Source of the DNA: a virus
IMG/VR virus record: IMGVR_UViG_3300009180_000207
Coordinates: 1 to 24,771 of that record
Direction: 5' to 3' (one strand)
Length of the DNA: 24,771 bases
The notes under the pieces were generated by a model, which saw only the letters and a program-made list of their open reading frames with translations, was not told the DNA's origin and did not search any database. Both the position numbers and the translations under genes were made by a program. Numbering within the stretch: position 1 is the stretch's first letter; each line of letters begins with the position of its first letter. Below, in pieces: positions 2,171-23,967 of the stretch.

Positions 2171-4000
2171 TTATTTTGTCAATGCTTTTGTCAAAGCATC
2201 ATAGTTGACTGCTTCGTTTATTTGTTTGTTTAGCGCGCTTGTTTCTGCCATTTCTGACGCTGTTTTGGCTAAAGGAAAATTCATTTTTGCCAACTTGTCT
2301 AAGCCTCTCAACACAACATTACCTGTGTTGGAATAGTTGACAGCACCTTCAGGCTTAATCACAGCGTCTTTGATTGCGTCACGCAACTCAACCAATGTTT
2401 CTCGACCCTGTTTGCCAAACATATACGTTAATTTATCTTCACGATCTAGAGTTTCAATTGCCGAGTTCAGCTTAGCAAAAGACAACTTACCGCTTGAGTT
2501 TTTAGTTAGCTGATCTTTAAGATATTGAATGGTTTGACCTTGTAGTTCTGCATAAGCCTGTCTACCTTCTGCGCCGCCTTTCTTCAAGAGCTTAGTAACA
2601 GTCCTCATTTCCTCTAAAGAACCATCCAAAACGATGTGGCTAAACACATCATCTAGCGCAACGGCTCGATCTGCATACCCGCCGCGAGTGCCAAGAAGTT
2701 TAGCCACCCGATATGTGTTTTCAAAGTCGTTAGCCAACTCTTTACGTTGTGTTCTAGCAGCACGATAAAGATCACCGCCAGCACCCTCAGTCATGTCATT
2801 GATCACGCCTTTGACGCGACCCATATAAACCGCTGATTGTTCGCCAGGCTTAGAAAGACTACCCGCAGCTTGGTACAAGTTTTCTATGTCATCAATCGTG
2901 ATTTGCCCACCCGTAGACTTCTTTAGAGCATCTAACTTGGCTGCAATTGTTTGGATTTGAGGAACAGAAATTCCCTCTGGTGCGTTATCTGCCAACCATT
3001 TTTCTAATGGCGCAGTATCAACCACTTGTTTGGTTTCTCCCGCTTCCCTTGCGGCTTGGTACGCTTGATCTACTTTGAGTTTTTTGTCATCAAATTGCTT
3101 GACCACATTTTTGTCAACCAAAGAGCCAATTTTTCTATAGGCATCAGGGTCTGCATACTCTGCACCAGTTTGATTAGACAATTGCTCAAAACGCCGCAAA
3201 ATATCGCCTTTTTGACCTTCCTTAAACTGAATCAAGGCTTTGGCAAGTTCTGGCTTTTCTTTGGCAATGTCAGACTCAAATTGCAATTGACCTAAATCGC
3301 CTGTTTGTTCGCCTTTGGTTAAACGTATTTTTTGTTCATTAGCTCTAGTCTGACGGGCTAACGACTCATCCACAGAAGCAGCACCCATGCCCTGCATCTT
3401 TGGTTCTGGCGCTCTTAGCAATGCAGCCATTTTTTGAGCCGTTGGAGAGGCTTGAGCAACAATAGAAGTTGCTTGTCGTACAGCAGGGCCTGTAAGGGTA
3501 GAAAGTGCCGTTCCTGCGCTTGTTAAAGGCGTTGGAGGCACAGAGCCTAAAACCTTTGCCATTGTGTCAACAACCTCTGGCCCTGTTTCTGTTCGTGGTT
3601 GATAGAACTGCCGATTAACCATTTGCGCGGCTTCTTCGCCCGCTTGACGACCTTGTGGAGTGCCATAACCACCCACAGCTTCGCCGTACATCCGAGCAAT
3701 AGGATTAGCTACTAAGCGACCAATGTTGCCAGCGACAATTGCAGGGGCTTCAACATAACCCATGATCTTGTCTTGCATTGTTGGTTCTGGACGGGCTTGC
3801 GATGTGCTTACTTGTCCAGGTATTTGATTTACCATTTGTTGAGGCGCAACCATAGATGCAGAAGTCAGACCAACTTGTTTATAAAACTGGTCTTTTGGTA
3901 TGTCAGCATAGAATTTTTTATGCAAAGCATCTGCCAATGCCGCATCAGGCATATCGCTGTATTGAGGATACTGACTGCGAACTTCTGCTAGTGTTGCCAT
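2171..4000 (-). CDS. Putative internal virion/ejection protein (609 aa)
   Basis: A large, mostly helical protein. The N-terminus (VRSQYPQYSDMPDAALADAL then HKKFYADIPKDQFYKQVGL, residues about 7-45) is a short helical module that I have seen at the start of many phage ejection-type and internal virion proteins. A Gly/Ala/Pro-rich stretch follows (about residues 85-180, including VANPIARMYGEAVGGYGTP), possibly membrane-interactive, then long charged helices to the end. It is the third of three consecutive helical proteins between the gp10-like gene and the fibre, matching the P22 gp7-gp20-gp16 arrangement of proteins injected with DNA. The start overlaps the previous stop by one base. I see no lysozyme or transglycosylase motif. 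The ejection role is inferred from position and composition. Confidence 0.72.
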   Translation of the reverse strand: MATLAEVRSQYPQYSDMPDAALADALHKKFYADIPKDQFYKQVGLTSASMVAPQQMVNQIPGQVSTSQARPEPTMQDKIMGYVEAPAIVAGNIGRLVANPIARMYGEAVGGYGTPQGRQAGEEAAQMVNRQFYQPRTETGPEVVDTMAKVLGSVPPTPLTSAGTALSTLTGPAVRQATSIVAQASPTAQKMAALLRAPEPKMQGMGAASVDESLARQTRANEQKIRLTKGEQTGDLGQLQFESDIAKEKPELAKALIQFKEGQKGDILRRFEQLSNQTGAEYADPDAYRKIGSLVDKNVVKQFDDKKLKVDQAYQAAREAGETKQVVDTAPLEKWLADNAPEGISVPQIQTIAAKLDALKKSTGGQITIDDIENLYQAAGSLSKPGEQSAVYMGRVKGVINDMTEGAGGDLYRAARTQRKELANDFENTYRVAKLLGTRGGYADRAVALDDVFSHIVLDGSLEEMRTVTKLLKKGGAEGRQAYAELQGQTIQYLKDQLTKNSSGKLSFAKLNSAIETLDREDKLTYMFGKQGRETLVELRDAIKDAVIKPEGAVNYSNTGNVVLRGLDKLAKMNFPLAKTASEMAETSALNKQINEAVNYDALTKALTK

Positions 4001-5400
4001 TATCTTATTCCTAGTGGGTCAGCTTGTGGGGCAATGTTTCGCGCGCCTTGAGGCCCTGCTTGAATGCCCATAGCTTTAATCGCCAATTCTCTAGCATCTT
4101 GCTTTTGCTTGATAACTTGAGCCGTGTCACCCGCTTGTGGAAAATATTTCTTTTCCTCATTAGCAAATTCAGACGCGCCAATAGCAGCACCCGATTCTTT
4201 GCGTAAGACTGCCGTAATGAAGTTTCTACGGGCTTGGTCAACTTGTTGTTGCTCAGAACTTGGGCCACCCAAAAAGGTTGGCAATGGGTTAATTAGCGCA
4301 TTTGTGGCCTCTTGAAGTTTGTCACCAATAAAAGGAGTCAAACCGACTGTTCCACCAATTGCAGAACGAACTATGCCAGTATTGGTAACGCCTTTCTTTT
4401 CCAAATCTGTCAGTAACTTGTTGGCTTCTGCCATTCTCATGCCGTAAGCCGTAGCGTTACCTTGCGATTCAGTCAAAGGTTTCGGCACAATTTGTTCAAG
4501 TGCAACCGCTTTAGCCACTTCTTGTTGTGCTTTTGGTGACAAGCCCGACAAAGGCGTGTAGCCTGTCTGAGCCGTTGGCATAGCTGGATTAACCGCATTA
4601 GGCGCAGCAGAAACATTGGGCGCAGCAGGGGCAGCAATAGGTTGAGGTGCTCGACCACCCGCTTGCATTCCAGTATCAAAGAATAGTTGTTGCGCGCTAA
4701 TTCCAATTCTTGCCGCTTCATTAGCAAGTGTGGCTTTTTGACTTGCCGACAATTGGTTAAATGCGCGATCTGCTTGCTCTTTATCTTGTGCAAGTTTAGC
4801 CGCAGTATCAACGCTAATAGACTCAGTAACAGGGCCAAGATCAACGCGCTTGCCTGTTTCTGTAAGACCAATGCGGTGAGTTTTACCGTCCACCAATTCA
4901 ACTTTAAAGTCTTTGATCTTGTCTTGAGCAAACATCTGAGACAACATAGCACCACCCGCACCTTGCAAGGTCGGATTCTGTGAGCCAAGGGCAAGTGCCA
5001 TAGCTTTTTGTCTGTCAGGGGCTTGTGCTGGTTGGATATACCCACCCATTTCGCCTTCTGGAGACACGCCTTGCGGTGCGCCTTGCGGTGCAGGGCCAGC
5101 CAATTCCCTTGCTGGAGTGCCTTGCATTGCGCCTAAAAAACTCTGCAAGTCTGCTTGGTTTTGTCCTTGGTACTTTTCAGCCAAGTCTTTATATTCTTGC
5201 AACGCGCCTTTTTCCTCTTTGCCAGCCATGTAGCCTTGGAGGATTTTGGCAAGGCCGCCGTAATGACTAGCTCTAACGCCTGCTTGTTGTGGCAATTCCA
5301 TAGGCTGCATGGCCTGTTGACTCAACAATTGAGCCATTTGCAATCTGCGCTGAACTGCCGCAGTTTCTGGGGCGTATGGACTTAAATTAACTTCAGGCAT
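4000..5400 (-). CDS. Putative internal virion/ejection protein (466 aa)
   Basis: A Gln/Ala-rich helical protein with low-complexity Pro/Gly/Ala sections (PAPQGAPQGVSPEGEMGGY near residues 103-121, and APQPIAAPAAPNVSAAPNA near 251-269). The C-terminal third is better ordered: NPLPTFLGGPSSEQQQVDQA, then RRNFITAVLRKESGAAIGAS and EFANEEKKYFPQAGDTAQVI. This end is a pattern I associate with conserved phage structural proteins of ejection clusters. The middle of the trio 361-466-609 aa corresponds in position to P22 gp20. The start is ATG 5400, with AAGGAAC eight bases or so upstream. It ends in TAATG shared with the next gene. Function is inferred, not seen. Confidence 0.72.
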   Translation of the reverse strand: MPEVNLSPYAPETAAVQRRLQMAQLLSQQAMQPMELPQQAGVRASHYGGLAKILQGYMAGKEEKGALQEYKDLAEKYQGQNQADLQSFLGAMQGTPARELAGPAPQGAPQGVSPEGEMGGYIQPAQAPDRQKAMALALGSQNPTLQGAGGAMLSQMFAQDKIKDFKVELVDGKTHRIGLTETGKRVDLGPVTESISVDTAAKLAQDKEQADRAFNQLSASQKATLANEAARIGISAQQLFFDTGMQAGGRAPQPIAAPAAPNVSAAPNAVNPAMPTAQTGYTPLSGLSPKAQQEVAKAVALEQIVPKPLTESQGNATAYGMRMAEANKLLTDLEKKGVTNTGIVRSAIGGTVGLTPFIGDKLQEATNALINPLPTFLGGPSSEQQQVDQARRNFITAVLRKESGAAIGASEFANEEKKYFPQAGDTAQVIKQKQDARELAIKAMGIQAGPQGARNIAPQADPLGIR

Positions 5401-5409
5401 TTTTGTTCC

Positions 5410-6495
5410 TTATGCAAAGGCTTTAGCGCTAGCACCACCCAAACTATACAGACCAGCCAAATTCTGGTTGTAAGTGCCAGTTTGTTGGTTATACAAGTTT
5501 TGATTAAATGCGCCTTGTTGAGCCGTAGCGTTAGCAATCGGTGCAGCAGCCACGTTTGCGCCTGTGTACTGTTGGAATTGAGGATTTTGAATCTGTGAAC
5601 CACTCATCAGCGCGTTGATCTCATTGAGAGGCAATTGACGTTGAGTAATTGCTTGTGCCAAAGCCTGTTGTTGGGCAGTGTTACCAAATTGAGCCGCTTG
5701 TTGGTTTTGGTTAAAGTTTTGTGCAATAGCAGCGTTTCCTGCTTGCTGATTTGCTAAGTTAGCGTTAAATCCTGCAAGTCTGGATTCGTTTCCAAACTGA
5801 CCAGTAGTCAATGCTTGACCGTAGCCCTGAGCATTTGCGCTCATATCTAAGCCTAAACCTTGCAAAACAGCTTGTGTGCGTTGATCGTTTTCTTGTTGAG
5901 CCAACAATGTAGCCGCGTTGTCGTAGGCTTCAGTGCCAGGGCGCAAACCTTGGTTAATCAACTGCGTTTCTGTGCTTACTCTGTTTCTTTGCAATTGAGG
6001 CTCTAGGCGAGACATGATTGCTTCTTGTGCCGTTGTGCCTGCGTTTATAGGCATTTGAGCAACATTGCTAGTGTCAAGCGTATACGATAGATTTGGCCCT
6101 GCCACACCACCTTGTGCTTGTCCAACAGGGGCAAGTGAAGTCTGAACCGATGGCCCACCAAACGAAAAGGGCGTGTTAAACACCTCACCAGCATTAGTTA
6201 CGCCCTTGTTACCTAACTGAGCCAATCCATACTGACCTTGTTGTTGTTCGTTTAACGTCTTTTGCGCTTCAGGCGTTAGCGTTTGCGTAATGGTTGGCGT
6301 GTCACCATCGTAAGTAACCGTTTGATTACCGTAAGGGGAAAAGATGTTGGGATTAGATAACTTTGCCGTAGCCCTTGCCGCTTCTAAGTTAGCTACGCCT
6401 TGCTCTTTAGCCGCGCCCGTGTAGTCAGGGGCGGCAGGCGCCGCAGGCGGTGAGCCAAACAAAAGGTTAGTAAGTCCACCAAATAATCCAGCCAT
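5410..6495 (-). CDS. Putative internal virion/ejection protein, Gln/Asn-rich (361 aa)
   Basis: The N-terminus MAGLFGGLTNLLFGSPPAA is glycine-rich and hydrophobic, like the membrane-active starts of phage DNA-transfer proteins. The centre (about residues 160-240) is helical, with LEPQLQRNRVSTETQLINQG and LRPGTEAYDNAATLLAQQEN, a pattern common in these proteins. The last 130 residues are very rich in Gln and Asn (AIAQNFNQNQQAAQFGNTAQ). It follows the gp10-like gene and precedes two more helical proteins, the position of P22 gp7. The Shine-Dalgarno AAGGGGAT stands just upstream of the ATG. The ejection role is inference from composition and position; a scaffold-like or other internal protein is an alternative. 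Confidence 0.7.
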   Translation of the reverse strand: MAGLFGGLTNLLFGSPPAAPAAPDYTGAAKEQGVANLEAARATAKLSNPNIFSPYGNQTVTYDGDTPTITQTLTPEAQKTLNEQQQGQYGLAQLGNKGVTNAGEVFNTPFSFGGPSVQTSLAPVGQAQGGVAGPNLSYTLDTSNVAQMPINAGTTAQEAIMSRLEPQLQRNRVSTETQLINQGLRPGTEAYDNAATLLAQQENDQRTQAVLQGLGLDMSANAQGYGQALTTGQFGNESRLAGFNANLANQQAGNAAIAQNFNQNQQAAQFGNTAQQQALAQAITQRQLPLNEINALMSGSQIQNPQFQQYTGANVAAAPIANATAQQGAFNQNLYNQQTGTYNQNLAGLYSLGGASAKAFA

Positions 6496-6505
6496 ATCTA
6501 TCCCC

Positions 6506-8062
6506 TTAAAGAGTACCGCCGCCAGCGAAAACTAGATCGCTTGCAACCCATTGCAATTGTATTCCTTGGCTTGCACTTTTAATCAGCGGTGCAAACGAAT
6601 AACCGATTTCTGTGACCCCTTGCCATTGAGCGTTAGGTACTAATCCATCGCCCCAAATGCCTGTGTCCCAAAGTGAAGTGTTCCAAACGGCATAAGTCTC
6701 AACCGTGAAATCTAAAGGCACACTTTGATCTAATGTGTTGTAGTCCACATTGACGTTGCCATAGATTTCAGGGACTCCGCTTGTAAACAAGTGATAGCGA
6801 ATCATCTCGCATTGTTTCTGATTGGCTTTGCCATACGTCTGAAAAGACTGCAAGCCAAACGATTGAATCGCTGACCCGTTGTCAGAGTTTGTATTCCAAG
6901 CCTGACCAACAAAACCATTACCACCAAAATAAGGGTTGTCTTGATACAAGACCCAACAGTTAGCCTCCCAACCCGTAAAGTTGCACCAAGACTTAGTGAT
7001 GTTGTTCATCACATACTGCTGTTGGTTCAAGTTTTCTTGAACTGGTACGTTCATGATCAACTGATTTTCTTTCGGAAAATACAGCAAACACCAACCAAAG
7101 TTGTTTGAGTAGCTAGAAATAGCCGAACTCATTGCGTATTGGATTTTATTAGTGATCGAGACTCTTGGGTCTAATCGACTACTTTGGAGTGCGCCAGACA
7201 TAGGCACAACACCGTCCTGAGTAATGATTAAAAGGTCACCACCAAACTTAACCCAACATCTCGCACCAATAGGCGCTCCAACTGTATAAACACCGATTAA
7301 AGAGATTCCTGTGGGTGTTGTGGGGTCTGTTAGCCTCCAAACCAATACTTCGCCCTTAGACGTAATAAACGCCAAGTAATCGTCCATGCCGTAACCAGCA
7401 TCTAACGTCCAAGTCATCCCTGCTACTAGATAGCCACCCATTTGGACAAGGGAAGACATATCCAAAGCAGTCGCCGCGCCAGCAATGGCGTTAATCGGCA
7501 AGTACCAGGCTTTCAAACTTTGTTTTTGAATCAACCAAATGCGGTTTTTAAACAGGTTGATGTTTGTGCAGTTTGCCGTGTTTACGCCAGTAATGTCATA
7601 TCCCGCACCGTCACCATCTGCGTGCCATGCCGACCCGTCATAGCTTCTGAGCTTGTCAGCGCCGTTGACCATCATCAAATAAGAGCCGCCCGTGTTTGTG
7701 AAGTTTACGTTTTGCCACCGAGCGTTTGTCAAGCCTGAAAGGTCAGCCGCACCCACTGCGCCTGCTGACGTTACGTTATAAACCTTAGTGCCAACCGCAG
7801 CAAACAGTTTGTCTTGCGTTCCAGAGGAATAAGCCATTACGCTTTCAACTTGGCCCGTCATGCCCGTGGCGTGTTGGGTATAGCCGTTTCTCAAAATAAC
7901 CGAGTTTGTGCCAGGCCACCAATTCTGAAGCGTAACCGCATCTTCAACAGCCATAGAACCAAGAGAATCTCTGGCATTCCAACCGCCAATAGGCGCAGGA
8001 ATAGTCACCACAGACGATGTTTGCGTCTTTAGCTTGGCGTATTTTGAATATTGTTTAAGCAT
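6506..8062 (-). CDS. Putative P22 gp10-like tail accessory/DNA-stabilisation protein
   Basis: A 518-residue beta-rich protein. It begins with IPAPIGGWNARDSLGSMAVE and TLQNWWPGTNSVILRNGYTQ (about residues 22-65), then repeated blade-like segments: DKLFAAVGTKVYNVTSAGA, LMMVNGADKLRSYDGSAWH, INLFKNRIWLIQKQS, YLAFITSKGEVLVWRL and DLLIITQDGVVPMSG. Such recurring short beta strands with Gly turns suggest a beta propeller. P22 gp10 (472 aa) is the tail factor that closes the portal channel after packaging, and this gene has the same position, after the adaptor and before the ejection proteins. The ATG directly abuts the previous TAG stop, so translation is likely coupled. The assignment rests on order and architecture, not on a clear signature. 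Confidence 0.65.
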   Translation of the reverse strand: MLKQYSKYAKLKTQTSSVVTIPAPIGGWNARDSLGSMAVEDAVTLQNWWPGTNSVILRNGYTQHATGMTGQVESVMAYSSGTQDKLFAAVGTKVYNVTSAGAVGAADLSGLTNARWQNVNFTNTGGSYLMMVNGADKLRSYDGSAWHADGDGAGYDITGVNTANCTNINLFKNRIWLIQKQSLKAWYLPINAIAGAATALDMSSLVQMGGYLVAGMTWTLDAGYGMDDYLAFITSKGEVLVWRLTDPTTPTGISLIGVYTVGAPIGARCWVKFGGDLLIITQDGVVPMSGALQSSRLDPRVSITNKIQYAMSSAISSYSNNFGWCLLYFPKENQLIMNVPVQENLNQQQYVMNNITKSWCNFTGWEANCWVLYQDNPYFGGNGFVGQAWNTNSDNGSAIQSFGLQSFQTYGKANQKQCEMIRYHLFTSGVPEIYGNVNVDYNTLDQSVPLDFTVETYAVWNTSLWDTGIWGDGLVPNAQWQGVTEIGYSFAPLIKSASQGIQLQWVASDLVFAGGGTL

Positions 8063-8233: not shown

Positions 8234-9151
8234 TTAAACGCTAGGCCAATTGCCATCTTGAACAGACCAAGGCCCAACAAGTTGATTCATTCCCACTGGT
8301 GCTAGAGACATAGACGGGACAGGAACGTCTTGAGCCTTACAGTAACTCAGCGCCCTAGTGAATTCCCCTAGTTCAATGCCGTAATCTAGCTTTTTAGCTT
8401 TTAAGAAGTAAAACTTCAAGCCAGCCATCATCAAATCATCAGGGAAAATACAAGTGTCAGAATCAAGCGTAAATGCGTTTTTTGACCCTTGGTCTGAGCC
8501 TGAAGCACAAACCCAATAGTTAGAAACGTACTCAAATGAGAAGTTGTAAACAGTCGTCAACGCCTGAAAAATACGGAATTTGTTGTTGTAAATCCGATAG
8601 CGTTCGCGTGGGCCAATTGAGATGATGCCGCCTTGCAAGAACTGCCAATCCTGAGAGGACTTAGTGCCCAAGTTTCTCCAGTGGTCTGTTCTGTCCCAGT
8701 TGGTGTCCGAGATCATTCGGTCATAGCCTGTGGGAAGGTCGTAATCCTGCTTGGCAAACGTCATAGAAACAGACGCTGTGGAAGTCGTTACAGGCGCGTT
8801 TAGCGTAACCTGAGTAGGTGAGTCAATCGTAAGAATCTCAGCGTAAGGCGTTTGTCCCGTCCCTGTAATCACATTACCAACTTGAAGTGACGATGTGCTT
8901 GGGATGTTTGTAATGATCGTAGAACCAGCGGTAATGTTCCCCGTGGTGCTAATAGCAGGTTGTGTCTGCCAGATGTAGGCTTGAACTAGACGTTGCCATT
9001 CAAAGTCTCTGACTAAATCCTTACCCAAGCGTTGAGCAAGGGAAAGGAGTTGGATGGTCTGGTTGTTGGTAGACCCTATCACCACCGCTGGTTGAGTTAG
9101 ACCTAGTTCACCTGATACCTGATCAACCAATTCCAGCAGTGTGTAGGACAT
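8234..9151 (-). CDS. Putative head-to-tail adaptor (gp4/gp11-type connector protein)
   Basis: A 305-residue protein. The N-terminal helices (LLELVDQVSGELGL, then LSLAQRLGKDLVRDFEWQRL, residues 5-55) and the later segment YDLPTGYDRMISDTNWDRT (about 137-155) with SSQDWQFLQGGI match podovirus head-tail adaptor/tail tubular proteins, in which a helical bundle plugs under the portal. Residues about 66-133 form a Ser/Thr-rich beta insert (STTGNITAGSTIITNIPS, VGNVITGTGQ, QVTLNAPVTT), probably an Ig-like domain inserted between helices and exposed outside the connector. ATG 9151 abuts the previous TAA. It lies downstream of the capsid genes and upstream of the gp10-like factor, as expected for a connector. 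Confidence 0.72.
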   Translation of the reverse strand: MSYTLLELVDQVSGELGLTQPAVVIGSTNNQTIQLLSLAQRLGKDLVRDFEWQRLVQAYIWQTQPAISTTGNITAGSTIITNIPSTSSLQVGNVITGTGQTPYAEILTIDSPTQVTLNAPVTTSTASVSMTFAKQDYDLPTGYDRMISDTNWDRTDHWRNLGTKSSQDWQFLQGGIISIGPRERYRIYNNKFRIFQALTTVYNFSFEYVSNYWVCASGSDQGSKNAFTLDSDTCIFPDDLMMAGLKFYFLKAKKLDYGIELGEFTRALSYCKAQDVPVPSMSLAPVGMNQLVGPWSVQDGNWPSV

Positions 9152-9736
9152 TTATTCCACCGTTTCTTTTTTGGGTCTGCCTGCTTTTTTGGCAGATAAC
9201 TCGTTTACCAATGCGCGTAATTGTGCCATTTCTTCCTCTTGTTGTGCGAGCTTGGCATCAGTTTCTGCACGAATTTTATCGAACATTTGCGAATCTTGGG
9301 CAGCAGCAATAAACGCCTTAGCTTTGTCGCGCAAATCGTTAAAACCCATGATTTTGTTGCCAGCAGAGTCAGCAAGTTGGGCAAACTGGTCAATCGTGTA
9401 GATATGCAAAGCCTTAAATTCGGCTTTTTGCGTGTCTGACAGAATAGCCCACGCATCAATAGGCGTACCCGATACACGTTGTTCCTTCTTTTGCTGGAAA
9501 CGCGCCCACTCTACAGGGAAGTCTTCAATGTCAGTCTCGCGCATAGGACGGTCAACCACCAAAGTTGAGTCGCCTGGCACTAACTTCTTGAGAAAAATCT
9601 TCTCTTCAAAGATAGGACGTTTTTCAGTCATTGTCTTGAAGTTGTTTTGACGTTGAACAGTATGAAAAAACACCGCCATCTTGCCTCGGTTGTCTTCCAT
9701 AAAGCTCTCGTTTGTCCAGTTAGCATCGTGTTGCAT
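9152..9736 (-). CDS. Conserved phage structural-region protein with coiled coil and AT-hook-like tail
   Basis: A 194-residue protein with no recognised enzyme motif. Residues 1-65 are mixed (GKMAVFFHTVQRQNNFKTM, then KIFLKKLVPGDSTLVVDRPM), residues 75-150 are helical (RFQQKKEQRVSGTPIDAWAI and later), and about 155-185 is a coiled coil (DAKLAQQEEEMAQLRALVNE). It ends KKAGRPKKETVE, whose GRP core flanked by lysines resembles an AT-hook, so contact with packaged DNA is possible. It resumes the structural operon immediately after the sugar cassette and abuts the adaptor gene. AAGGGG stands upstream of ATG 9736. A head-completion role is inferred from position. Confidence 0.65.
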   Translation of the reverse strand: MQHDANWTNESFMEDNRGKMAVFFHTVQRQNNFKTMTEKRPIFEEKIFLKKLVPGDSTLVVDRPMRETDIEDFPVEWARFQQKKEQRVSGTPIDAWAILSDTQKAEFKALHIYTIDQFAQLADSAGNKIMGFNDLRDKAKAFIAAAQDSQMFDKIRAETDAKLAQQEEEMAQLRALVNELSAKKAGRPKKETVE

Positions 9737-9737
9737 A

Positions 9738-10475
9738 TTAACCCCTTTGTTTAAGAATTTTGGCAGTTTCCTGCATTAAACCATCACCGTGAAATATAAC
9801 CTCGGCATCCTGAGTTTTCAAGAAGTTTTCCATCTCAATCGCCGCTTGCACCATTTGTTTAGTAGTCTGAAAAATTCGCTCTCCAGCTTGAACCATTGTT
9901 TTATCTTGCTCTTTTCCCAAATGTTCCCCCGCGTGTCGCTGTTCTGTAAATGAATTATCCATCCCATATATGTTGAATTTTCGATAACCCAAGGCTGCAC
10001 ACACATTCATTGCTCTCATCCCTACGGATGAACCACCACCAATCAGGCTTTCCATCCCTTCGGGGTGATTTTCAGCAACCCAAGCCACAGTCTCTAAGTC
10101 ATCCCCGTTTACAAGATGCCAAATAGCCACGTTATGCCGTTTTAAAGCCTCAAAATAAGTCGGGTGACACACAGATGCCAAAAGATATTTTGTCGCCTTC
10201 TGGGGCTTCTTTAACATCCTAGCCTTATGTTCTCTAGGGTCACAGTCAATGTGCCAATCAGGGTTAATACCCTTCTCCACTAGAAAATCATGCGCTCCCG
10301 ATACAGTAACAATTGGTCGTTTTATGTGTTTCCAAGTGTCTTTTAGGCTTGGGCCATAACACACAATAGAAATCCATCGGTCATTGAACTTTGGCTTTTT
10401 CTTGAGCAAAGGCAGATGTAAGGCTTGCTCCATCTGCTCATGCCGTTCTTGGTTGGTTAAGACGCCTTTAAGCAT
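9738..10475 (-). CDS. DUF115 (MptE/Maf-like) family protein, stand-alone
   Basis: A 245-residue protein belonging to the DUF115/MptE-like family, which includes archaeal 6-hydroxymethyl-dihydropterin pyrophosphokinases and the Maf flagellin glycosylation proteins. Visible landmarks: ISIVCYGPSL (36-45), AHDFLVEKGINPDWHIDCDP (61-80), REHKARM, LLASVCHPTYF (98-108), VAIWHLVNGDD, LIGGGSSVGMRAM (144-156), and LGYRKFNIYGMDNSF (162-176). All of these recur in the first half of the 540-residue protein two genes upstream, so the two are paralogues. GAGG lies five bases upstream of ATG 10475, inside the end of the methyltransferase gene (19-nt overlap). In a virion operon a sugar-transfer role is more likely than folate biosynthesis; this is inference. 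Confidence 0.8.
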   Translation of the reverse strand: MLKGVLTNQERHEQMEQALHLPLLKKKPKFNDRWISIVCYGPSLKDTWKHIKRPIVTVSGAHDFLVEKGINPDWHIDCDPREHKARMLKKPQKATKYLLASVCHPTYFEALKRHNVAIWHLVNGDDLETVAWVAENHPEGMESLIGGGSSVGMRAMNVCAALGYRKFNIYGMDNSFTEQRHAGEHLGKEQDKTMVQAGERIFQTTKQMVQAAIEMENFLKTQDAEVIFHGDGLMQETAKILKQRG

Positions 10476-11059
10476 TCAATCCTCATATCTCGAAATGGAA
10501 AATGGTAGTTAGGCTCACAGAATTTAATCTCTGTCATGCCCACGGAAACCAACATATCGTGCAAGGGACGCTGAAACCAGCCCCACCTGTGGCACATAGC
10601 TTCGCTTTTGTGTTTAGGGTCGCCGTATAGGGCTGTCAAGGTCATAAAAGGCTGTAATGGTTCTCTGGTTTGTACGCAGTTGGTCACATACGCAAACACC
10701 TTGTCCATGCAGGGAAGCTCTAAGATCATCTTGCCGCCAGGCTTTAACACCCGTTTCCACTCGGTCAGCACATCAGCCACTTCCCACTCGTAAAAGTGTT
10801 CTAGAACGTGTATTGCAGCCACCGCATCGGCACTATCAGATGCTATTTCTAGCTTTCTCAGGTCACACTTTAGATCGGCAATGTCGGAATGCAGATCGAC
10901 ATTTATCCATCCGTCCCATTTCTTGTTTCCGCATCCAAGGTTGTACGCTGTTTCGTAAGTGTCTTCCACTTGTCGATTAGTGTTTTTGGCGAGAATTCGT
11001 CCGTCACGAACTTCTGCGCCGTGGATATGCGCTGGTTGACGTTCTGTGTCTGTGTCCAT
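10457..11059 (-). CDS. SAM-dependent class I methyltransferase
   Basis: A 200-residue methyltransferase of the Methyltransf_11 type. The SAM-binding motif is YNLGCGNKKWDGWINVDLHS (39-58), followed by the acidic CDLRKL, SADAVAAIHVLEHFYEWE (76-93) and WKRVLKPGGKMILELP (101-116). The variant LGCG...GWINVD with VLEHF is typical of methyltransferases found in glycan and glycosyltransferase clusters. ATG 11059 has a strong GAAGGA Shine-Dalgarno six bases upstream, although this makes a 157-nt overlap with the upstream gene in another frame. GTG 10969 (residue 31) would shorten the overlap but has no Shine-Dalgarno. Its neighbours, a GT-B and two DUF115 domains, suggest that it methylates a sugar or glycoconjugate rather than DNA; no DNA-recognition domain is visible. 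Confidence 0.85.
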   Translation of the reverse strand: MDTDTERQPAHIHGAEVRDGRILAKNTNRQVEDTYETAYNLGCGNKKWDGWINVDLHSDIADLKCDLRKLEIASDSADAVAAIHVLEHFYEWEVADVLTEWKRVLKPGGKMILELPCMDKVFAYVTNCVQTREPLQPFMTLTALYGDPKHKSEAMCHRWGWFQRPLHDMLVSVGMTEIKFCEPNYHFPFRDMRIECLKAS

Positions 11060-12525
11060 TTGATTCCTTCAAGAATATTGCCTACATAAATTTCGGGTAT
11101 GCCTAAGTCTCTTTCGCTGACCACAAAGCACCCTTGACGAATTGCCTCTACTGCCCTGTTTGGGCTTTTGTACTCTGCTGTTGCAGGCATCAAGACAATA
11201 TCTGCTTTTGCAAATTCCTCTAGCATGGTCTCATGCGACCAAGGGATAGCCCCGCCAAAGTTAGACACCACCCGTAGGTTGTAGCCTTCTAGATCGGGCA
11301 ATATTTTCTCAAGACTGTGCTTATTAACTGCGTGTCCGTACCATAAAAGGTTAAGACCGTTGCAATGCGGCTTTTCCTCTGGGTATTCATAAGGGTCACC
11401 AATTACCGTTGCATCCCGTCCGTGTTCCTTGATGATTTTGGCCATTATTTCGGTGTTACAGCTCACCGCATCGGCTAGGCGTAAGGCTTCCTTGTAATGC
11501 ACCCAATCAAAATGATCATCACAGAAATCAACAATAACCCACGCGCCACGGGCTTTAGCTTTGGCCATATCCATTAGCTCATTGGCTTGCGGTTTAGCAA
11601 AGATAAGCGTGTCAGCAGTAAAGTCGTTAAGGCTTGCCCATCCTTCACTCACAATCTTGGCACGATAGCGCCAGCTTGCTGAATTCTTGTCGCCCCAATG
11701 GATAAAAGAAACCCTGTCGTTAGGCTCTTTTTGTTTGTCAATCATCGCCTGAAGTTCAACAGCGTTTTGCTCACGCTTCTTGATAATCGCCTGAATCAGA
11801 CCATGCCCAAAGCCATAAAAATGTGCGTCTGGCAAATAATCGTAGTAGGTTTGAAAATGCTCGGCTTGCAAAGCCATAGAGGGATTGCAATAAAAAGTCT
11901 CGCCATCTTGCTCTATCCTTACTTCGGTAAGCGTGTCGCCTTCTTTAAGGCCAGACCCGTTGATTCTGAGCATATCGCCTGTTAGACAAGAATCAAACCC
12001 AAACAAAGAAAAATGTCGGTAGCCAAGGACGTAAAACAGCGATATAGCCCTTAATCCTGAAGTCGTGCCGCCACCTATCAACATTGCGTTTTTAGGTCTG
12101 TCTTGGCCTTTCATCACATACGGATGCCAGATCGTGACCTTATGCCCTTCCAAGTTGTCAAACATTGCCTTATGACATTGAGACGCAATCATGTATTCCA
12201 CATCCTTGTGAGGCTTGTAGAAAGAGATTCTGTGTTCTTGGGGGTCTATTGCTAGGGCGTAGTCAGGAATTACGCCTTGTGAGATTAACCAATCGTGCGC
12301 GTCTTTGATCGCCACGATTTTTGTGGTTTTGGCCATCTTTCTAATAACATCTATTTGCCCCGCCACGCTTGGCCCACTTGCCACTAGCGTGATCATTTCA
12401 TCTTTAGCAAGCTCTTGATTCTTTACTTGTGGAAAACCACGCGCTACCGCAGCTTCCATGTTCTGAAACAAAGTCTCATCGTCAGCAACGCACCGACCAA
12501 CGATTTTTAAAGGAACAAATGTCAT
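10903..12525 (-). CDS. Fusion of DUF115 (MptE/Maf-like) domain with GT-B glycosyltransferase
   Basis: A 540-residue two-domain protein. Residues about 45-245 are DUF115/MptE-like: ITLVASGPSV, AHDWLISQGVIPDYALAIDP (76-95), QEHRISFYKP, IASQCHKAMFDNL, LIGGGTTSGLRAI (149-161), LGYRHFSLFGFD. Residues about 271-520 are a GT-B glycosyltransferase: FIHWGDKNSASWRYRAKIV, WVIVDFCDDHFD, RLADAVSCNTEIMAKII, a second Rossmann half starting LNLLWYGHAVNKHSLEKIL, and SPNRAVEAIRQGCFVVSE (454-471), which has the donor-binding acidic helix pattern. Maf-type DUF115 proteins are linked to sugar transfer onto surface proteins, so the fusion is probably a bifunctional glycan-transfer enzyme. The Shine-Dalgarno lies in the 3' arm of a hairpin just upstream. 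The sugar and acceptor are unknown. Confidence 0.82.
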   Translation of the reverse strand: MTFVPLKIVGRCVADDETLFQNMEAAVARGFPQVKNQELAKDEMITLVASGPSVAGQIDVIRKMAKTTKIVAIKDAHDWLISQGVIPDYALAIDPQEHRISFYKPHKDVEYMIASQCHKAMFDNLEGHKVTIWHPYVMKGQDRPKNAMLIGGGTTSGLRAISLFYVLGYRHFSLFGFDSCLTGDMLRINGSGLKEGDTLTEVRIEQDGETFYCNPSMALQAEHFQTYYDYLPDAHFYGFGHGLIQAIIKKREQNAVELQAMIDKQKEPNDRVSFIHWGDKNSASWRYRAKIVSEGWASLNDFTADTLIFAKPQANELMDMAKAKARGAWVIVDFCDDHFDWVHYKEALRLADAVSCNTEIMAKIIKEHGRDATVIGDPYEYPEEKPHCNGLNLLWYGHAVNKHSLEKILPDLEGYNLRVVSNFGGAIPWSHETMLEEFAKADIVLMPATAEYKSPNRAVEAIRQGCFVVSERDLGIPEIYVGNILEGIKWTQTQNVNQRISTAQKFVTDEFSPKTLIDKWKTLTKQRTTLDAETRNGTDG

Positions 12526-12564: not shown

Positions 12565-13098
12565 TTAGACTGGGTTAGAAGTCATCAAGCCTGCGTTATT
12601 GACAACGCAGAAAGGTGCAGAAGCAGAAGTGGCAGAAGTGTTTGCCACAATACCTTGGATGTAACCAGCCGACACAGTAGCATCGTCCAATTTACCAGCG
12701 GTTGAGGTTGTGTACAAAGGCACTTTAGGTTGGCAAGCAACCAACAAGTTGACTTTCAAAACGCCATTCAAGCCAATCCAACCGTAGTAGGAAGAAGCAA
12801 TAGCATTTTGAGCAAAGCCAACCATGTTGTAGCCCAATGCGGCAGCGTTAGTAGTTGTGACAGGCACAGCGCGGAGAACAGGAGTAGAACTCGCTGAATC
12901 GCCGTATGTGCTCATGATCACAGCGTCATAAGCTGCAATATCGGACTCGGCGCGAGCAAAAATGTAAACGCCGTTGTTGGTTGTGTTAACTCGTGTACCA
13001 GGGGTCACGGGAAACAAGGTTGTAGAACCAGCGGAGGTTGACGCATAAGTTGCGGTCAAGTCAACGCCAATTTTGCCATCGGTGATGTAATCAGCCAT
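12565..13098 (-). CDS. Putative capsid decoration/head protein (177 aa)
   Basis: A beta-rich 177-residue protein opening MADYITDGKIGVDLTATYAS and rich in Ala, Ser, Thr and Val. Clear strands include GVYIFARAESDIAAYDAVIM and LGYNMVGFAQNAIASSYYGW, and NGVLKVNLLVACQPKVPLYT. It contains no enzyme motif. It follows the major capsid gene with only five bases between and has GGAGTAAG upstream of ATG 13098. Small beta proteins at this position in phages usually are capsid cement or decoration proteins; the combination of a solvent-tolerant beta fold and the position makes this the best reading. A minor head protein is the alternative. It would be a natural acceptor for the glycosylation enzymes encoded next, but nothing in the sequence proves this. 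Confidence 0.65.
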   Translation of the reverse strand: MADYITDGKIGVDLTATYASTSAGSTTLFPVTPGTRVNTTNNGVYIFARAESDIAAYDAVIMSTYGDSASSTPVLRAVPVTTTNAAALGYNMVGFAQNAIASSYYGWIGLNGVLKVNLLVACQPKVPLYTTSTAGKLDDATVSAGYIQGIVANTSATSASAPFCVVNNAGLMTSNPV

Positions 13099-13103
13099 GA
13101 TTC

Positions 13104-14084
13104 TTACTCCGTCATAATGCCTTGGAACTGAAGTCCCGAGGCTGTCATGTTACCCGCCCAGCCAATCAAACGCACAATTGCGTCTTGGTTGGTACTCATA
13201 CGCTCATCGCCGATTGGGACGAAGTTGCGGTTTGCGTGAGGACGGAAGAAGATGTACTTCGTGTTCAGGAAGTAACCAGTAGAAGCAGGAATGTTTCCAC
13301 CAATACCACCGTCAAGCACTACATCTGCGTTCATGTACTTTGAAGCAACAAAGCCAAGTTCGGCCATTTTGCTTGAGCCAGGAAAACGCTGGATGTTTTG
13401 CAATGAAGACATGAAGAACGACCACAAGTTGTTGTCCAACAAGATCAAATCAACCACATCAGAGCCACGGCTTGTCTTGGCATACAAACGGTTAAAACCA
13501 GTTTGGATGTTAGATGCGCTTGCGCTTACGCCGAGATCGCTAGAGAAGTCGAAAGTCTGGTTTTGCCAGAAAGACCAAGATGCACGATCAATGCCGCCAA
13601 CCACACCTGTAGATGGGTTAGCAACAACCATCGCCTGCAAACCTGTGATCTGCTTGCCGTTGTTACCTGTACCGTCCGAGTAGATACCCGTAGAGATCAA
13701 GTTTTCAATGGAAGCCTCTGCAACGTCCAAACGTGCGTCAAACAAATCAATGATTTGCTCTTCGCCGCTGTTTTGCAACATCTCAAGACCGTTAATAGTG
13801 ACAGCCACCGCAGCTTGTTTAATCGGGAACTGAGCCGCACTGATCACATCCGCAGGGGAAATGTTCAGAACTTCAGCGCCTGAGTAGTACATGGCGGTAG
13901 AGTTTGCTTGGAACGACAATTCTTGCAGAATCGTAGAACCACCTGTGAAAGGCTTGTAACGGCCCTTCTCACGCAGGCGAGTCAGCAACGCATTGTTTTT
14001 TGTCACGTTATCAGCAACGATGCCAGAACGCGACTCAATGGTGGTAGCCAAAACGTCTGAGTAATTACTATTGGCGTATGCCAT
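13104..14084 (-). CDS. Major capsid protein (HK97-like fold)
   Basis: A 326-residue protein with the character of a phage major coat protein: an N-terminal segment with VLATTIESRSGIVADNVTKN and LLTRLREKGRYKPFTGGSTI (the start of the ordered shell domain), a spine region with FPIKQAAVAVTINGLEMLQN and DLFDARLDVAEASIENLIST, and a C-terminal part with MAELGFVASKYMNADVVLDG and YFLNTKYIFFRPHANRNFVP. It has the strongest translation signal in the block, AAGGAG eight bases before ATG 14084, as expected for the most abundant virion protein. It directly follows a scaffold-like gene and precedes a decoration-like one. The HK97 fold is inferred from length, order and pattern. Confidence 0.9.
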   Translation of the reverse strand: MAYANSNYSDVLATTIESRSGIVADNVTKNNALLTRLREKGRYKPFTGGSTILQELSFQANSTAMYYSGAEVLNISPADVISAAQFPIKQAAVAVTINGLEMLQNSGEEQIIDLFDARLDVAEASIENLISTGIYSDGTGNNGKQITGLQAMVVANPSTGVVGGIDRASWSFWQNQTFDFSSDLGVSASASNIQTGFNRLYAKTSRGSDVVDLILLDNNLWSFFMSSLQNIQRFPGSSKMAELGFVASKYMNADVVLDGGIGGNIPASTGYFLNTKYIFFRPHANRNFVPIGDERMSTNQDAIVRLIGWAGNMTASGLQFQGIMTE

Positions 14085-23138: not shown

Positions 23139-23297
23139 TTACTGCTTTTTAGCTAAGGCTTTTGCCATTTCTTGCTTTTTATCAGCGGCGGCAAACTCTT
23201 GTGCTACCGCGACAGGAATGTCGGCTTTCTTAGCAAACTCAGGGTTGTGTGCCGCAGCTTGCATAAATCGGGCTTGTTTGGCGCTGTGACTAGGCAT
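23139..23297 (-). CDS. Conserved tiny phage protein upstream of terS (52 aa)
   Basis: A 52-residue protein, MPSHSAKQARFMQAAAHNPE followed by FAKKADIPVAVAQEFAAADK and a Lys-rich end (AKALAKKQ). AAGGAA lies six bases before ATG 23297, and the start overlaps the end of the glycosyltransferase gene, so it is a real coupled gene. The pattern SxKQARFMxAAAHNPxFAKK..IP..VA.EF is one I recognise as very widespread in phages, often near terminase genes or other virion genes, with no known function. It is basic and helical. It lies between the GT8-like gene and terS. Confidence 0.85.
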   Translation of the reverse strand: MPSHSAKQARFMQAAAHNPEFAKKADIPVAVAQEFAAADKKQEMAKALAKKQ

Positions 23298-23967
23298 GAC
23301 TTTCCTTCATGTTTATCAGTCCGTTTAGCATTCTAGACTTGGTGTTAAACCATTGTTTTGAGTAGTCGCAGTTTGAATAATACGGGAATTCTGGGATTCC
23401 TAGCGTGTAATGAGCAATCTTTGCGTTTCCAAGGTCTTGCTCACCCACTAAAAAATTGTATTCCTTTGGCAGTTCACCAATCTGCTCGTCTTTTAGCCAC
23501 TCAAACCTATGTAGCTCTGAGCCTGCGTGATTGTCCACAAATTCAGGGGTTAGTTGCTTGTTTGCTAGATGTTCACAGTTCCAAAGAATCAGGCTTGACC
23601 AATTTTTTCTGGGGTAGTCCTCGTTCTTGGACTCCATTGCTGTGTTGATGTACTTCTTTTTATGCTTAGTTTTGTATTCATGTTTTACGACTTGGACAGC
23701 CTTGGTCGGGTCAAACAACTTGTCCAGATCGTCAATGTCGGACAACATAAGCATATCGCTTGCATCCATAAATATCGCCCTACCCTTGAATCCTGTAAAG
23801 TAAGGCACTAAGAATCTTTGGTAAATAAAAGTGTTTGACCCGTCTCTTTGCTTGCCAAAAAAAGGCGTGATCGCCACCGCTTCTGAGGTGCGCTCAATCA
23901 AGGATTGGGTAAAAACGTGATACCCAATGGCCTCTCTAGGGTCATAGCCTGCAAAAATTCTGATCAT
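23290..23967 (-). CDS. GT8-like glycosyltransferase (GT-A fold)
   Basis: A 225-residue protein opening MIRIFAGYDPREAIGYHVFT, the start of GT-A type transferases found in several aquatic phages. RAIFMDASDMLMLSDIDDLD (63-82) holds the metal/nucleotide-sugar DxD-type motif (Asp68/Asp71), NWSSLILWNCEH (122-133) corresponds to the NSGxxLxN segment of GT8 enzymes, and IAHYTLGIPEFPYYSNCDYS (184-203) to the C-terminal sugar-binding His region. It would transfer a sugar from a nucleotide-sugar donor to an unknown acceptor. It shares ATGA with the Dps-like gene. It may serve virion glycosylation together with the cassette at 9738-12525, or modify host surface glycans; its length is short for GT8 but complete. 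Confidence 0.8.
   Translation of the reverse strand: MIRIFAGYDPREAIGYHVFTQSLIERTSEAVAITPFFGKQRDGSNTFIYQRFLVPYFTGFKGRAIFMDASDMLMLSDIDDLDKLFDPTKAVQVVKHEYKTKHKKKYINTAMESKNEDYPRKNWSSLILWNCEHLANKQLTPEFVDNHAGSELHRFEWLKDEQIGELPKEYNFLVGEQDLGNAKIAHYTLGIPEFPYYSNCDYSKQWFNTKSRMLNGLINMKESHA

Follow-up and report, generated by a model that had tools for sequence, protein, structure and literature searches.

Why does a phage head operon carry genes for sugar chemistry? The question is raised by a 24.8-kb virus record (IMG/VR record IMGVR_UViG_3300009180_000207; 24,771 nucleotides (nt), called the window here as a whole), in which a cassette of three overlapping genes stands among the genes for the virus particle. 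The cassette encodes a fusion of a DUF115 domain with a GT-B glycosyltransferase-like domain, a class I S-adenosylmethionine (SAM) methyltransferase and a second, stand-alone DUF115 protein. The three genes, probably together with a glycosyltransferase-like gene in another part of the window, are predicted to form a phage glycan-modification module, and a virion protein is its likeliest target. We favor this prediction with modest confidence.

All three genes are encoded on the minus strand. The fusion (540 residues, positions 10903–12525) combines a Maf-like DUF115 domain (residues ~10–250) with the GT-B-like domain (residues ~268–511). It is followed by the methyltransferase (200 residues, 10457–11059) and the stand-alone Maf-like DUF115 protein (245 residues, 9738–10475). 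The coordinates of the open reading frames agree with a sequence-only reading of this DNA, which had described three same-strand genes with a 157-nt and a 19-nt overlap. Pfam family PF01973 matches the fusion with 67.2 bits and the stand-alone protein with 62.2 bits, above the curated cut-off of 34.6 bits. Methyltransf_11 is found in the methyltransferase with 41.2 bits (cut-off 21.2 bits); the nearest NCBIfam match of this protein, the mycofactocin oligosaccharide methyltransferase MftM (E-value 3.3e-7), lies below its cut-off. The NCBIfam model PseD (flagellin modification) matches the N-terminus of the fusion with an E-value of 6e-9, covering only the middle of the model and reaching 35 bits against a cut-off of 670. 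The stand-alone DUF115 protein has no PseD match. By this cut-off, neither of the two is a full three-domain Maf/PseD protein.

The association of the three genes is not due to chance. Two scans of viral contigs gave 92 loci, of which those were counted whose first gene is nearly full and followed by more than 1 kb of sequence. The complete set is carried by 79 of 79 such loci (about 70 distinct contigs, as nine were fetched twice), and across the family identities to the window's proteins lie between about 60% and about 95%. Conserved co-occurrence at the same locus, on which the sequence-only reading depended, is thereby borne out. The tblastn searches of 50,697 phage records with eight DUF115 queries (the fusion and the stand-alone protein of the window and the proteins of loci L169, L391, L258, L439, L430 and L433) found no DUF115 domain; the methyltransferase parts alone matched. 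More distant sialyltransferase-like genes surfaced only with the protein of locus L428 as query.

The 157-nt overlap (10903–11059, minus strand) encodes the C-terminus of the GT-B domain in one frame and the N-terminus of the methyltransferase, including SAM motif I, in the other. Its length is exactly 157 nt in 71 of the 79 full sets and 133–148 nt in the others. A Shine-Dalgarno-like GAAGGA (11065–11070, minus strand) precedes the ATG of the methyltransferase (11059), and a purine-rich motif is kept at this site in 73 loci. Among codons with a single change, synonymous ones make up a fraction of 0.46 (methyltransferase frame) and 0.31 (glycosyltransferase frame) within the overlap, compared to 0.88 in the part encoding only the methyltransferase. 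Both frames are constrained, and the overlap is therefore read in both. An overlap of this length is long for phage genes and spans functional parts of both proteins.

The AlphaFold (AF2) model of the stand-alone DUF115 protein has a mean predicted local distance difference test score (pLDDT) of 83. Its best match among solved structures is the flagellin glycosyltransferase Maf (PDB entry 5mu5), of a family that transfers nonulosonic (sialic-acid-like) acids to flagellin, with a Foldseek E-value of 1.1e-6 and a Z of 20.8 (217 residues, 2.8 Å). The MptE-type enzyme 8sd5 (Z 14.1), SteA (Z 10) and the GT42 sialyltransferases Cst-I and Cst-II (Z 9.1–9.3) follow; the two sialyltransferases rank lower than Maf and are on a par with thiamine pyrophosphokinases. 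For the N-terminal half of the fusion (residues 10–250) the order is the same, with Z 16.0 for Maf 5mu5 and 11.2 for 8sd5. A profile built from five divergent DUF115 sequences of phages matches Maf with an E-value of 1.6e-10 and MptE with 0.0085; its best E-value with the GT42 sialyltransferases is 0.54, which is no sequence match.

PF01973 is named after MptE in Pfam, and the general fold of the Methanocaldococcus enzyme, a 6-hydroxymethyl-7,8-dihydropterin pyrophosphokinase (8sd5), is matched as well. The DUF115 proteins could thus be pyrophosphokinases with a pterin or some other small molecule as substrate. However, MptE stands behind Maf both by fold and by profile. The phage DUF115 proteins have not kept the DLDGD and HGDN stretches of 8sd5, which have an active-site role in the archaeal enzyme; DPREHK-like and CHP stretches align at these places instead. 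Furthermore, there is no pterin gene among the genes scanned. Because the fold comparison and the sequence profiles agree, a pterin-kinase identity appears unlikely from the models and alignments, and as an account of the cassette we regard it as very improbable. Maf is the nearest fold for both DUF115 domains, in line with the sequence-only reading, and a solely pterin kinase-type active site did not appear.

Nearly all phage DUF115 proteins carry a His-bearing loop after the G-x-D motif (RHAGEH, SHAYDQ, KHVIHQ or HWHGDH), as does Maf. In the stand-alone protein of the window, this conserved loop reads RHAGEH, with histidines at residues 181 and 185, and follows a GMDxS motif. The catalytic base of GT42 enzymes is a histidine in the region of this loop. 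Since the loop is kept, catalysis is more probably a task of the stand-alone DUF115 protein. The N-terminal DUF115 domain of the fusion has no His-bearing loop in 12 of 12 sequences and therefore may bind the acceptor rather than catalyze. With Maf (PseD family), the phage proteins share the fold of the catalytic domain, the best profile match, the G-x-G-P-S-L and G-x-D motifs and the loop. They differ in consisting of the central domain only (245 residues), lacking the N-terminal and the helical C-terminal domain of Maf, or in being fused to GT-B or methyltransferase domains. Additionally, the window has no flagellin or nonulosonate genes nearby.

The cassette occupies a variable slot in the head operon. 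The major capsid protein (13104–14084, minus strand) matches phrog_9953 with an E-value of 3e-103 and is 58% identical to that of Stenotrophomonas phage BUCT555. Between its gene and the cassette lies the gene of a 177-residue head "decoration"-type protein (12565–13098, minus strand), which has a weak head virion match (phrog_29386, E-value 6e-5). The downstream border is a 194-residue structural gene of the Mx8 p50 type (9152–9736, minus strand; phrog_20268, E-value 1.2e-13), next to a tail protein gene (8234–9151). Related head operons are present in the Myxococcus phages Mx8 and Mx9, in BUCT555 and in Bradyrhizobium phage ppBjS10J-1. The sister phages Mx8, Mx9 and ppBjS10J-1 lack the cassette. 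Mx8, Mx9 and ctMlz233 have the capsid, decoration, p50-type and tail genes in this order, with little or nothing between them. The slot of BUCT555 holds four genes, a putative holin and an endolysin among them. In the 134 loci with both borders, the distance from the capsid to the p50-type gene ranges from less than 100 nt to 6.2 kb. Judged by sequence appearance, the slot encodes large repetitive, fibre-like proteins in five loci (L372, L385, L269, L377 and L319) and a GT-B-looking protein with no Pfam match in L362. The region between the capsid/decoration genes and the p50-type gene is hypervariable in this phage group, and L253 is also among the carriers of fibre-like or enzyme-like proteins.

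The same parts recur in other arrangements. Within this slot, a single DUF115-methyltransferase fusion is found in L391, L405–L410 and L433. In L258/L411 and L412, such a fusion is followed by a glycosyltransferase of 224–232 residues, which in L411 matches phrog_1962 "glycosyltransferase" with an E-value of 2.9e-35. L169, a Sulfuricaulis metagenome contig, has a GT-B-looking domain fused to DUF115; this N-terminal half is a glycosyltransferase by sequence appearance only and has no Pfam match. A tree of the capsid proteins (88 clusters) implies at least six changes between presence and absence of DUF115. DUF115-like and methyltransferase genes are also located behind capsid genes unrelated to that of the window: behind a phrog_617 capsid in L428 and several of L413–L427, and in the siphovirus MW202621 in the order capsid, methyltransferase, DUF115-like gene. 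The DUF115-like proteins of these phages score below the Pfam cut-off. For the DUF115-like protein of the siphovirus locus L455, a direct profile comparison with the stand-alone protein of the window is not significant, and the only basis for homology is given by motifs and by a Pfam match below the cut-off (0.0022).

A comparable position is taken by phrog_4603, labeled "alpha-2,3-sialyltransferase". In Pseudomonas phage PMG1 (D3 type; L456, 3560–8293) such a gene follows directly behind that of the major head protein, with a methyltransferase gene a few genes on. Behind the capsid gene of Tetraselmis virus S20 (L457, 2071–6987) there are two phrog_4603 genes, a GT-D glycosyltransferase (PF08759, E-value 3.4e-25) and a methyltransferase, interleaved with the head-tail adaptor. 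The composition in S20 is nearly that of the window, assembled from other building blocks. GT42 enzymes (Cst-I, Cst-II) and the phrog_4603 proteins of D3/PMG1, P1 (PmgP) and S20 appear to share the fold class with the window proteins (Z ~9), and the genes of the D3-type phages and S20 share the place just behind the capsid gene. In sequence, they are only marginally similar to the window proteins, and the D3-type phages have neither a GT-B fusion nor a directly overlapping methyltransferase. The DUF115 domain of L258 matches phrog_4603 with 3.7e-5, and a profile comparison to the protein of L428 gives an E-value of 3e-4 (probability 39). By these comparisons, phrog_4603 and the DUF115 proteins of the window are only distantly linked. 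A relative matches the PmgP region of P1 (L458, 4001–5055). The phrog_4603 head module of the D3-type phages is a tractable laboratory system for the idea.

Upstream of the terminase genes, the window has a further glycosyltransferase-like gene of 225 residues (23290–23967, minus strand). It is GT8-like (GT-A) by its FMDxSDM motif and by the Glyco_transf_8 match of a relative in contig G010 (E-value 5.9e-4, below the cut-off); a sequence search against solved structures gave no match. It is present in 24 of 24 records of the window's family, the distant L089 and L345 among them; searches of the contigs L258, L391 and L362, the last of which is a short fragment, did not find it. The GT8-like gene, which the sequence-only reading had not linked to the cassette, is a probable further member of the pathway.

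In the proposed mechanism, the module would be cytoplasmic and made late, alongside the head proteins. The stand-alone DUF115 protein would most likely be a Maf/GT42-like glycosyltransferase that takes a sugar from an activated donor made by the host. By analogy, this donor may be CMP-linked (cytidine monophosphate) and sialic-acid-like. The acceptor would be a hydroxyl group of a virion protein or a first sugar already attached to it. The GT-B half of the fusion would add a further sugar, with the DUF115 half possibly binding the acceptor instead of catalyzing, and the methyltransferase would cap the glycan or methylate the protein. As targets, exposed head or fibre proteins encoded in the same operon are the most probable, and the purpose may be to shield or alter the particle surface.

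Several observations weigh against this proposal. The GT-B assignment is less firm than the others. Whereas the PF01973 and Methyltransf_11 domains named by the sequence-only reading exceed their cut-offs, its GT4-like domain does not, since Glyco_trans_1_4 scores 19.8 bits with a cut-off of 27. On a model with a pLDDT of only 65, this half (residues 268–511) resembles several GT4-type chains with Z ~8–9 and high root-mean-square deviations, so that the fold comparison favors GT-B at low model confidence. No family for nucleotide-sugar or nonulosonate synthesis is present among the 22 proteins of G010 that were scanned; the donor would therefore have to come from the host. The slot is filled with fibre-like or lysis genes in other phages, so that position alone is no proof of a virion target. 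The decoration protein is suggested as the target by the distribution of its family, which is present in 9 of 9 DUF115-bearing capsid clusters and in 26 of the 79 that lack DUF115 (Fisher p = 1.2e-4). Correction for relatedness leaves about three informative independent pairs, all in the same direction, and the link is not significant (median p = 0.25). The content of Ser and Thr in the decoration protein gives no target signal either, with 18.5% in phages with the cassette and 16.9% in those without.

Maf and GT42 enzymes usually act on cell-surface molecules (PMC11339370; PMC9290775), and the slot also houses lysis genes and enzymes in other phages. Thus, during infection the cassette might alter a surface glycan of the host (O-antigen, capsule or flagellin), for instance to keep particles from sticking to debris or to block other phages. 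However, the genes are part of the late head operon and not of a lysogeny or early region, and none of the cassette enzymes has a membrane-type hydrophobic segment. The placement next to head genes recurs in several unrelated phages, which favors a virion target over modification of the host surface, without proving it. We regard the host-surface explanation as doubtful. An emphasis on methylation is less probable still: methylation of virion proteins would be the essential activity and the DUF115 and GT-B domains would mainly serve as binding or scaffold modules. In its favor, it is the methyltransferase that returns as a partner in most of the arrangements, the loop histidine is missing from the fusion's DUF115 half, and lysine methylation is also found on glycosylated flagellins (PMC9290775). 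Against this explanation stand the conserved loop of the second DUF115 protein and the further glycosyltransferase genes of differing folds that join the module in several phages.

DNA glycosylation does occur in phages, and a glycosyltransferase together with a methyltransferase would also be compatible with synthesis of a modified nucleotide or DNA base instead of a protein glycan. However, there is no thymidylate-synthase-like, hydroxylase or base-kinase gene among the genes scanned. The cassette lies in the head operon, and its nearest relatives are protein or sugar transferases. Such a role in DNA modification is highly improbable. A more far-reaching proposal is that many unrelated tailed phages carry a mobile, reshuffled capsid-side module of Maf/sialyltransferase-like enzymes, methyltransferases and glycosyltransferases, which would cap head proteins with a methylated, sialic-acid-like host sugar. 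The freshwater family of the window would be its most elaborate and most strictly kept version. We put this forward only tentatively.

Some further features of these genomes were seen. In the phage group of L437–L445, a DUF115 gene is located just ahead of the genes for the terminase large subunit and the portal protein (L439, 6824–7756). The capsid gene of L169 seems to be interrupted (3835–6326); the inserts contain reading frames for GIY-YIG-like (3992–4522) and HNH-like (4719–5354, minus strand) endonucleases, suggesting introns. The Sulfuricaulis metagenome-assembled genome, the sole genome contig found, was considered as a lead to the host and is too distant to name one. In the window, the gene at 6506–8062 is labeled "amidase" by PHROG 5107; its relatives are annotated as head closure or phage stabilization proteins and the label looks wrong. 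A GNAT-like acetyltransferase gene of the relatives (contig G010, L448, 7291–7746), of Mx8 and of L169 has no counterpart in the window, and only a short gap (6496–6505) separates the genes on either side there.

Glycosylation of virions by phage-encoded enzymes is already known. As far as described in PMC12363180, the mycobacteriophage glycosyltransferases Che8 gp110 and Corndog gp38 modify capsid or tail proteins of the phage's own virions (Freeman et al. 2023). That system was shown experimentally, and the account given there describes no Maf-like domain or linked methyltransferase. A literature search found no paper joining DUF115 or MptE-like proteins with phage particles. The sequence-only reading had called a phage-encoded pathway of this composition undescribed to its knowledge. 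In view of S20 the composition is less unique than thought, and the combination of Maf-like, GT-B and methyltransferase domains in this slot is new within the literature searched. If the proposal is true, phages apply flagellin-type sugar chemistry to their own particles. Virion glycosylation would then extend beyond a few mycobacteriophages and include common phages of freshwater as well as model phages such as D3, and the unexplained "MptE-like" and "alpha-2,3-sialyltransferase" genes in phage head modules would gain a function. The way in which genomes are interpreted with regard to particle surfaces, receptor binding and recognition would change as well.

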